NCBI GenBank assembly: GCA_029961055.1
Contig: JASBVM010000009.1
Span: 62,001 to 126,000 of the forward strand
Length of the DNA: 64,000 nt
From: Bacillota bacterium
GTDB lineage: Bacteria; Bacillota; Sulfobacillia; JAIMAT01
Direction of reading: 5' to 3'
Shown piece after piece: positions 51,255-56,521 of the stretch (within the stretch, counting starts at the first letter, position 1; each line of letters begins with the position of its first letter). The notes beneath the pieces are model-generated. The model did not search any database, had not been told where the DNA came from, and worked only from the letters and a program-made list of their open reading frames with translations. The translations under genes and the position numbers were made by a program.

Positions 51255-52427
51255 TCAGGCGCCCGCCTCGGCGGTCGAGTCCATGGTCGCCTTGGGCCGG
51301 GCGAAGATCATCCGGCCGGCCGAGGTCTGGAGCACGCTGGTCACCTCGACCGACGTGGTCTCGCCGATGAAGCGCTTGCCGCCGTCCACCACCACCATGG
51401 TGCCGTCGTCCAGGTAGCCGATCCCCTGGCCGGCTTCCTTGCCGTCGCGGAGGATGTAGATCTCCAGCAGCTCCCCCGGCAGAACCGCCGGTTTGACCGC
51501 GTTGGCCAGGTCGTTGATGTTGAGGACGTCGACGCCGTGGAGCGCCGCCACCTTGTTCAGGTTGTAATCGTTGGTCAGCACCTTGCCCTGAAGCCGCTGG
51601 GCCAGCTCGACCAGCTTGGTGTCGACCTCCGAGGCGGTCAGCTCGCCCTGCCAGATCTGGACCGGTACGTTCAGCTCCTTCTGGATCCGGTTGAGGATGT
51701 CCAGGCCGCGGCGGCCCCGGTTCCGCTTGAGCACGTCGGACGAGTCCGCGATGTGGCGGAGCTCGTCCAGGACGAACTCCGGGATGACCAGCGGCCCCTC
51801 GAGGAAGCCGCTGGCGCAGACGTCGGCGATGCGCCCGTCGATGATGGCGCTGGTGTCCACGATCTTCGGCGGTTCCGCCACCGGCCGGAGGCTCTCCGCC
51901 GGCTCGGCGGCGGGAGGCCCGGCGGTCGCGGGCGCCACCCGGCCCGCTCGCTCCTCGTGTCCGTGCCGTCCGAGGCTGCGGAAGGCCTGCTGGATCTCCG
52001 CTCCCTTCCGGAGCCCGACCAGGCCGCCCAGGTAGGCGAACAGCAGGCTGACCAGGGTGGGGGCGACCACGCCGACGAAGGGGAGGCGCGAAAGCGGGGG
52101 AAGCAAAAGCAAGCCCAGGATGAGTCCGGTAAAGATTCCCACCGCGCCGCTGCCCAGCTCCTGCAGGGTGAGGTTGGCCACCGCCGACTCCATGCGCCGC
52201 ACCAGCCGCTCCACGCTTCGCCCCAGCCAGGGTCCGAGGAGGAAGCCGACGGTGCCCGCCACCAGGGCGAAGATCAGACCGAGAAAGGTCGGCCAGCTCA
52301 TGGGCGTGCTCCCCGGCCATGAACCGATGCGGAAGATGTCCGACCCGACGTATCGCCCGGCGTAGAAACCGCCCGTCAGCCCCAGCAGGGCCAGGACGAT
52401 ACGCGCAGCCCATATCAATGCGCTCAC
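51255..52427 (-). CDS. yacL: PIN/TRAM-domain membrane protein (YacL family)
   Basis: 390 residues. Three to four N-terminal membrane helices (residues ~5-130), then a PIN nuclease-like domain from ~190 (KIVDTSAIIDGRIADV with the acidic residues; later TNDYNLNKVAALHGV) and a TRAM domain at the C-terminus (GYLDDGTMVVVDGGKRFIGETTSVEVTSVLQTSAGRMIFA). The family is conserved in Bacillota but its role is unclear; an RNA-directed activity is inferred from the domains. 4 nt before ispD. GTG start. Confidence 0.93.
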   Translation of the reverse strand: MSALIWAARIVLALLGLTGGFYAGRYVGSDIFRIGSWPGSTPMSWPTFLGLIFALVAGTVGFLLGPWLGRSVERLVRRMESAVANLTLQELGSGAVGIFTGLILGLLLLPPLSRLPFVGVVAPTLVSLLFAYLGGLVGLRKGAEIQQAFRSLGRHGHEERAGRVAPATAGPPAAEPAESLRPVAEPPKIVDTSAIIDGRIADVCASGFLEGPLVIPEFVLDELRHIADSSDVLKRNRGRRGLDILNRIQKELNVPVQIWQGELTASEVDTKLVELAQRLQGKVLTNDYNLNKVAALHGVDVLNINDLANAVKPAVLPGELLEIYILRDGKEAGQGIGYLDDGTMVVVDGGKRFIGETTSVEVTSVLQTSAGRMIFARPKATMDSTAEAGA

Positions 52428-52497
52428 CTCCCGGCGGATCGCGTCCCATCCGTCCTGTCACCTATTCTTGCGCAGGAAGGCCCCCCCACAAACACCG

Positions 52498-52527
52498 CTG
52501 CCGGCCACGGGTGCCACGGGCCGGCAG
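52498..52527 (-). terminator. Hairpin downstream of carD
   Basis: 9-bp stem CTGCCGGCC/GGCCGGCAG with a 12-nt loop just after the carD stop; the following sequence has only TGTTTGT. A weak terminator or mRNA 3' end at best. Confidence 0.35.
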
Positions 52528-52537
52528 GATGAAAGGA

Positions 52538-53020
52538 TTATGCCAGGAGGCGGTCAAGCTCGGCGTGGGCCGCTTCCTCGTCCACGCCCTCGACCAGCGC
52601 CAGCTCCGACTCGAGGATCTGCCGCGCGCTCTCCAGCATCTTCCTCTCGCCCGAGGAGAGCCCGCGGTCGCGCTCGCGCCGCGCGAGGGAGCGAACCACC
52701 TCCGCCACCGCGTAAGGGTCGCCGCTCTTGAGCTTCTCGACGTTCGCCCGGAAGCGCCGGTTCCAGTTGGTCGTGACGATCGGAGGTTCGCCCTGCTCCT
52801 GAAGGACCTCGAGCACACGCTGAAACTCCTCGCGGGAGAGGACGGCGCGAAGCCCGCACCGCTCGGCCCCGTCGGTGGGGACCATCACCTTGATGCTCCC
52901 GCCCCGGACGGAGAGGACGTAGTACTGGCGACGTTCGCCCAGCACCTCCCGTTCCTCGACGGCCTGGATGACCCCGGCGCCATGTATGGGATAGACCACC
53001 CAGTCCCCGACTTGAAACAC
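52538..53020 (-). CDS. carD: CarD-family RNA polymerase-binding transcription regulator
   Basis: 160 residues from GTG 53020 (GGAGGTGATCTCGGC upstream). N-terminal RNAP-interaction domain FQVGDWVVYPIHGAGVIQAVEEREV and YYVLSVRGGSIKVMVPTDGAERCGLR; C-terminal helical DNA-binding domain NRRFRANVEKLKSGDPYAVAEVVRSLARRERDRGLSSGERKML-type (residues ~80-160). CarD stabilises the open complex at rRNA and other promoters in mycobacteria and Thermus. An extended -10 promoter and a striking inverted-repeat pair lie upstream. Confidence 0.93.
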   Translation of the reverse strand: MFQVGDWVVYPIHGAGVIQAVEEREVLGERRQYYVLSVRGGSIKVMVPTDGAERCGLRAVLSREEFQRVLEVLQEQGEPPIVTTNWNRRFRANVEKLKSGDPYAVAEVVRSLARRERDRGLSSGERKMLESARQILESELALVEGVDEEAAHAELDRLLA

Positions 53021-53046
53021 GCCGAGATCACCTCCACCCGACCACG

Positions 53047-53055
53047 ATTGTACCA
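53047..53055 (-). promoter_or_regulatory. Extended -10 promoter of carD
   Basis: TGGTACAAT (TGn plus TACAAT), 26 bp before the carD GTG. No -35 consensus; instead the position holds one arm of the 12-bp inverted repeat at 53070-53081. Confidence 0.6.
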
Positions 53056-53069
53056 TACCTGTCCGACGG

Positions 53070-53234
53070 AAATCGTAGATCGCGATGGCGGGGGCGGCAG
53101 GGCCAGACAGGCGCGTCCGGCCGCGACATCGGGGAGGCGGAAGCAGCCGCAGAGCGCCCGCCCAGCGGAGAAGGTGCCGGCCCCTGCCTCCGCTTCACCC
53201 ATCCCGGCCAGGCAAGCGATCTGATCTACGATTT
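53070..53234. repeat. 12-bp inverted repeat pair flanking the carD upstream region
   Basis: AAATCGTAGATC at 53070-53081 and its exact complement GATCTACGATTT at 53223-53234, 141 bp apart. Both arms are markedly AT-rich compared with the intervening GC-rich sequence, which has no gene. The carD-proximal arm covers the -35 position. Confidence 0.75.
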
Positions 53235-53284
53235 TCGACTACGGCTGGGGCGGGGCGGGTGCGGACGGAGCGGGCGCGGACCGT

Positions 53285-54013
53285 CTAGGCGTGGTGCACC
53301 CAGGCGCCCGAGCCGTCGGGATGGATCTCCCGTTTCCAGATGGGCACGACCGACTTGATCTCTTCGATCAGGAAGCGCGACTCCTCGTAGGCTTCGGCCC
53401 GGTGCGGCGACGCCACCGCGATGACGACGCTGGGCTCGCCCACCTTGAGGCGTCCGAGCCGGTGGGCCAGGGCGACCCGGCTCTCCGGCCAGCGCCGCAG
53501 CGCCCGCTCCACCAGGCCGGCCAGCTCCTGGCGCGCCATGGGCTCGTACGCCTCGTAGTCGAGCGCCACCACTTCCTGGCCGTCGCTCCGGTCGCGGACG
53601 GTGCCGAGGAAGAGGACGACCGCCCCCATCCCGGGCGCCTGTACCCGGGCGGAGCACTGGGCGACGGGCAGCTCCCCGTCACCCAGCGCGTACCACCCCC
53701 CGTCGCCCACGGGTTCCAGGGCCAGAGGCTGCGCCGTCCGGAGCCGCTCCGCAGGCGGATCTCCCTCGGAGCCGCCGCTGACCGGCGGGATCAGCGCCAC
53801 CTCGTCCCCGTCGGCCAAGTGCGCATCGCGCCCGGCATAGCGGCGGTTGACGGCCAGGAGGAGCGACGGGCCGAAGCGGGAGAGCGCCGGGTGCTCTTCC
53901 AGGAGCCGGTCGAGGAGCTGGCCGGCGGTGCTTCCTCCGGCCAGCTCCAGCTCCAGCTGGCGGGCGCCCACGGCCTCGGCAGCGCCCGCGAAGAGGCGGA
54001 CTGAGACGCGCAA
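53285..54013 (-). CDS. Molybdopterin synthase, MoaD-MoaE fusion
   Basis: 242 residues from TTG 54013. Residues 1-81 are MoaD (VRLFAGAAEAVGA, FGPSLLLAVNRRYA, DGDEVALIPPVSGG with the Gly80-Gly81 that becomes the thiocarboxylate). A ~35-residue linker follows, then MoaE from ~110: GAVVLFLGTVRD, LDYEAYEPMA, HRLGRLKVGEPSVVIAVASPHR, and lysines in IEEIKSVVPIWKRE. The complex adds the dithiolene sulfurs to precursor Z in molybdenum cofactor synthesis. For sulfur transfer the Gly-Gly end must be freed, so cleavage after Gly81 is expected, as reported for the mycobacterial MoaX fusion. No other moa gene is near; it trails clpC by 28 nt. Confidence 0.93.
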   Translation of the reverse strand: MRVSVRLFAGAAEAVGARQLELELAGGSTAGQLLDRLLEEHPALSRFGPSLLLAVNRRYAGRDAHLADGDEVALIPPVSGGSEGDPPAERLRTAQPLALEPVGDGGWYALGDGELPVAQCSARVQAPGMGAVVLFLGTVRDRSDGQEVVALDYEAYEPMARQELAGLVERALRRWPESRVALAHRLGRLKVGEPSVVIAVASPHRAEAYEESRFLIEEIKSVVPIWKREIHPDGSGAWVHHA

Positions 54014-54041
54014 AACGCCGTGACCCCCCTCCGCGCCGGCG

Positions 54042-56521
<2,480 letters not shown>

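Follow-up and report, generated by a model that had tools for sequence, protein, structure and literature searches.

Proposed two-site control and the regulation of carD

The carD product is an RNA polymerase helper protein that sets the stability of the open complex at many promoters. In the lac and gal systems of E. coli, a strong operator close to the promoter works together with a weaker, auxiliary one set a defined distance away; the proteins, of the LacI family, are identified, and the loops have been demonstrated. The candidate sites described here upstream of carD would resemble such auxiliary operators, with a strong proximal and a weaker distal copy separated by a set interval. A documented Gram-positive case is plasmid pLS20 of B. 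subtilis, in which RcoLS20 has two operators, OI and OII, one of which overlaps a promoter, with a loop between them; the spacer measures 75 bp and carries a static bend, each operator contains several sites, and regulation depends on the precise distance between the operators, since a 5-bp insertion destroyed it (PMC4207663). The carD element would likewise comprise paired sites for one regulator, here putative, with one site overlapping the promoter, while it differs in having one dyad per site, a distance of 162 bp from start to start and a G+C-rich interior instead of a 75-bp bent spacer (PMC4207663). We regard this likeness as an apparent analogy of working, not as membership.

Mycobacterial carD is controlled by the SigF-dependent antisense RNA AscarD together with Clp proteolysis (PMC8820732). 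The target is common to both cases, an RNA polymerase regulator whose level is controlled, or here would be; mycobacteria employ antisense RNA and protein degradation, whereas the present locus has paired candidate DNA sites upstream of the promoter (PMC8820732). Among titles and listings, the literature on carD promoters and expression covers mycobacterial control and holds nothing on Bacillota, and the control of carD outside mycobacteria appears little studied. The same level of search returned no description of a CTACGA/TCGTAG operator and none of carD in a clpC-radA neighbourhood, and no literature was found on conserved spacing of this kind. We tentatively favour, as quite possible, that the region upstream of carD is a two-site transcriptional control element, with one putative dimeric regulator most likely binding both sites.

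The carD locus and its promoter

The window analysed here, a stretch of 64,000 nucleotides, belongs to a 2.28 Mb assembly that is 96% complete (G000). It was compared with the congeners G001 and G002; these three genomes of the order, all of one genus, make up the comparison set, and every argument from conservation is one from n=3. The carD gene (Pfam domains CarD_TRCF_RID and CarD_C) occupies 52538..53020 on the minus strand of the window, with a GTG start at 53020 (MFQVGDWV...). The ORF finder also gives a longer frame beginning at ATG 53056. This is an unlikely carD start because it falls inside the promoter, while the GTG follows a ribosome-binding site, GGAGGTGATC (53026..53035, minus strand), that is invariant in the three genomes, and is common to the G001 and G002 orthologues. 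Across the leader GGAGGTGATCTCGGCGTG (53018-53035), every position is invariant in the three congeners, which exceeds the needs of a ribosome-binding site alone.

The promoter has an extended -10, TGGTACAAT, at 53047..53055 on the minus strand, which reads TGN-TACAAT in all three congeners with G, T and C as the variable base; its hexamer TACAAT lies at 53047-53052. The sequence-only reading of this DNA had noted that carD has no -35 consensus, and this is borne out by the hexamers at spacers of 16, 17 and 18, which match TTGACA at 0, 0 and 2 of 6 positions. Many other carD upstream regions carry TTGACA-like -35 boxes (judged by eye, uncounted); the -35 box of many related families is missing from the carD promoter of this lineage. 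The distance from the -10 to the carD start differs by 1 bp between G000 and the two congeners, so indels do occur nearby.

Upstream of carD in G000 lies a moaD-moaE fusion (53285..54112, minus strand; Pfam ThiS and MoaE), whose stop is 264 bp from the carD GTG, an interval that contains the inverted repeat described below. This MoaD-MoaE fusion sits in a ctsR-mcsA-mcsB-clpC neighbourhood. The gene order is moaDE-radA-carD in G001 and G002, with radA located between moaDE and carD (L044 3655-5031; L045 3849 to about 5280) and, in G001, with a radA start that overlapped the end of moaE. G000 has no radA between moaDE and carD (interval 53235-53290), and none was found elsewhere in the 96% complete assembly.

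An inverted repeat with one arm at the -35 position

Both arms of the 12-bp inverted repeat first noted here are present and are exact complements, AAATCGTAGATC lying at 53070..53081 on the plus strand and again at 53223..53234 on the minus strand. The gap between them, an interior of 141 bp (53082..53222), had been called G+C-rich and has 75.9% G+C against 70.8% for the window. Allowing one mismatch extends the repeat to 15 bp per arm (53067-53081 and 53223-53237). The proximal arm does occupy the -35 position, as had been stated, with its near edge 17 nt upstream of TACAAT, but the distance of 18 bp given from the extended -10 has to be corrected, since the arm is 14 nt upstream of TGGTACAAT.

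The repeat had also been thought unlikely to arise by chance. When 53057-53284 was dinucleotide-shuffled 400 times, 2 of the shuffled sequences had a 12-bp inverted repeat; the whole window, however, holds nine inverted repeats of at least 12 bp with loops of 3-200, where 30 shuffles gave a mean of 3.0 and at most 6. The repeat by itself therefore proves little and, taken alone, is at best moderately unusual. What lifts it beyond chance is that congeners, G001 in particular, have conserved it, and the comparison of congeners adds much to a repeat that statistics from a single genome had left undecided.

Conservation of the sites and of their spacing

Conservation, together with a 12-mer that is not scattered through the genome, favours the earlier idea of operators that a regulator might bridge, but each of the arms fits an imperfect dyad of 15 bp, of the CTACGA-N3-YCGTCG type (consensus about CKACGA-N3-YCGTMG), more closely than a half-operator of 12 bp. 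A dyad of some 15 bp has the shape expected for the site of a dimeric regulator. The proximal site, CTACGATTTCCGTCG, lies at the -35 position (53064..53078, minus strand) and reads CTACGA-TTT-CCGTCG in G000 and G001 and CGACGA-TTT-CCGTCG in G002; its ACGATTTCCGTCG is invariant in the three genomes and is 24 nt from TACAAT, start to start, in each. The distal site, CTACGATTTTCGACT (53226..53240, plus strand), is inverted relative to the proximal one, begins 162 bp from it (start to start) and matches it at 12 of 15 positions. Its sequence is CTACGA-TTT-TCGACT in G000, CTACGA-ATT-TCGTCG in G001 and CTACGA-ATC-TAGTTC in G002. Measured from the distal TCGTAG, the proximal ACGATTTCC lies at 155 bp in all three genomes.

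For each genome, 380 upstream positions were then scanned with the complement of the proximal 15-mer of that genome. The best match fell at offset 162 in both G000 (12/15, runner-up 8) and G001 (13/15, runner-up 9). In G002 the same offset gave 8/15 and ranked fourth, with a better match of 10/15 at offset 193, and the half TCGTAG survives. Shuffles as good at the fixed offset of 162 numbered 0/5000 for G000, 0/5000 for G001 and 186/5000 for G002; anywhere in 230 bp, they numbered 5/5000 for G000 and 0/5000 for G001. In an ungapped three-way alignment, the distal TCGTAG forms a run of six invariant columns, which was matched in 3 of 5000 shuffle sets. Of the arms that the sequence-only reading would have conserved among relatives, the proximal one is thus kept in three of three genomes and the distal one at the same offset in G001, but only by half in G002.

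Equal spacing has to be read against the surrounding genome. Among syntenic inter-gene spacers of 90-600 bp used as controls, exactly the same length was found in 2 of 22 for G000/G001 and in 4 of 22 for G000/G002, so equal spacing alone is moderate evidence. The main strength of the case, as judged from the sequences, is that the second site was found at the predicted place, not that the spacing is equal. The same observations bear on the possibility that the repeat is accidental and that the proximal conservation is ordinary promoter conservation. The nine repeats in the window, the equal spacer lengths among the controls and the weak distal site of G002 all speak for such an accident; given that the offset predicted from G000 yields 13/15 in G001, where none of 5000 shuffles did as well, we hold it to be highly doubtful.

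The distal site of G002 calls for caution. The G002 RadA extends about 18 residues past the end of the G001 RadA (L045 3849-3905), and the last three bases of its distal TCGTAG are the stop codon of this extended radA. Survival of the half-site is therefore not clean evidence for an operator and may be partly coding. Most of the evidence for a distal site thus comes from G000 and G001. The distal site starts 29 bp past the radA stop in G001 and overlaps that stop in G002, while in G000 the distal arm is 50 bp past the moaDE stop. The element stands beside carD with or without radA upstream, and so goes with carD rather than with any particular upstream gene.

Between the sites, the DNA has diverged and the sequence of the interior is not conserved among congeners. 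Its ungapped identity is 34-37%, compared with 33-35% expected from composition, and none of the gapped alignments among the three genomes was better than those of shuffles. Conserved paired sites and a conserved spacing around diverged DNA point to one putative regulator that would use both.

A small mobile or invertible DNA element, either a MITE-like insertion or an inverton that flips the upstream region, could also have this shape, with inverted ends of 12-15 bp enclosing 141 bp, and the ends of a small insertion had been offered earlier as a second explanation. This now appears very improbable. The genome contains two exact copies of the 12-mer, both at this locus, and one copy with a single mismatch on another contig, so the exact pair is single copy. 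It occupies the same place relative to carD, with the same spacing, in the three genomes, no congener has an empty site, and the arms were kept while the interior became saturated with change. As for an inverton, the interiors match no better in reverse complement than in forward orientation, both at shuffle level, a comparison weakened by saturation; moreover, the -10 lies outside the repeat, so that inversion would leave the promoter unturned.

DNA sites or an RNA stem

Alternatively, transcripts of the carD strand that read through from moaDE or radA might contain a structured RNA of about 178 nt, such as an attenuator or a processed leader, whose closing stem would be formed by the arms. 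In G000 and G001 the arms do pair in the predicted folds (z -2.84 and z -1.79, respectively), but the stem is absent from the fold of G002, which scores at the level of shuffles (z 0.02). For the 17-pair stem of the arms, 73.5% of cells are paired across the three sequences; no pair out of 17 has both sides changed, and the departures in 9 of 17 consist of unpaired cells only. This lack of compensatory change makes DNA-binding sites likelier than an RNA stem, and an invariant proximal core with a varying distal one is more readily explained by sequence-specific DNA sites that differ in strength than by a helix. Together, these features are an indication, from three sequences, that the arms are DNA sites rather than an RNA helix. 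The interior is not conserved, an Rfam scan of 52000-54500 gave nothing at gathering score (six weak matches were listed), and the promoter is downstream of the 3' arm, which leaves the stem out of any transcript begun at that promoter. We therefore judge an RNA stem to be quite improbable. No tRNA was detected by a tRNA scan, and none of the elements sought was found in a consensus promoter and terminator scan.

Confinement of the motif to carD

Exact matches to CKACGAWTTYCGTMG in the three genomes are found at this locus only, at four sites, the G000 distal site having two mismatches to it. This confinement to the carD locus makes the putative regulator seem to have one target. The pattern of promoter plus site likewise has one match per genome, always carD, and no further member of a regulon emerged among those motif matches elsewhere in the three genomes whose contexts were viewed.

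In addition, 72 other carD upstream regions were examined out of 89 loci, with duplicates possibly among them. None has a comparable inverted repeat: where one arm lies close to the promoter, the repeat scores 14/15 in G000 and 13/15 in G001, against at most 12/15 in the 72 other regions. The core CGATTTCC or its complement occurs once in these regions, at an unrelated position.

These distributions are relevant to another explanation, in which the proximal motif alone is functional, as a lineage-specific promoter element (one activator site, or a substitute for the -35 box), whereas the distal copy has no function and is either decaying or there by coincidence. The motif is placed exactly as a -35 box would be, in a promoter that has none, and it is invariant in all three genomes, while the distal site is degraded in G002, where the remaining half contains the radA stop. 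Against this, the distal copies of G000 and G001 stand out at an identical offset from saturated surroundings, and no other promoter of the three genomes combines the motif with an extended -10, so the motif is not a general substitute for the -35 box. We consider this explanation unlikely, although it deserves serious attention.

A possible mode of action

In the two-site control that we tentatively favour, the 15-bp imperfect dyad overlaps the -35 position in a promoter that has an extended -10 and no -35 box, the second, weaker inverted copy lies 162 bp upstream (start to start), and one putative dimeric DNA-binding protein would occupy both. At the proximal site, this protein may act as a repressor that blocks sigma region 4 or as an activator of the class II type that replaces the missing -35 contact. 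The distal site would be auxiliary and raise the local concentration of the protein, possibly through a loop or by cooperative binding. We infer the protein, the sign of its action, the cooperativity and the loop from the arrangement of the sites. Two copies of the site, one of them overlapping the promoter, are present at the level of sequence in G000 (12/15) and G001 (13/15), with 8/15 in G002. The spacing of 162 bp corresponds to 15.4 turns at 10.5 bp rather than to an integral number, and an in-phase loop of the simple kind does not readily follow from it.

A more specific proposal is that the element is a dedicated carD-specific switch confined to this high-G+C Bacillota lineage, in which the putative regulator would set CarD dosage through a fixed-length loop between the -35-overlapping site and the auxiliary site. 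We regard this as rather unlikely. If true, it would place the dosage of CarD, a global RNA polymerase factor, under its own dedicated switch. The pair of sites at a constant distance in saturated DNA may in any case offer a handle for finding the regulator of carD.

Among the motif matches elsewhere, contexts were opened for 13 among the best of 98 matches, and for other matches as well; most of those viewed lie within long open frames. A coding stretch, AYDFRR, carries a match and recurs in G000:C5 and G001:C2, and one match (L057), confined to G000, occupies the spacer of a promoter with TTGACA. Within the moaDE coding region, at 53914-53948, there is a G+C-rich 12-bp inverted repeat with a microRNA-family match far below gathering score.
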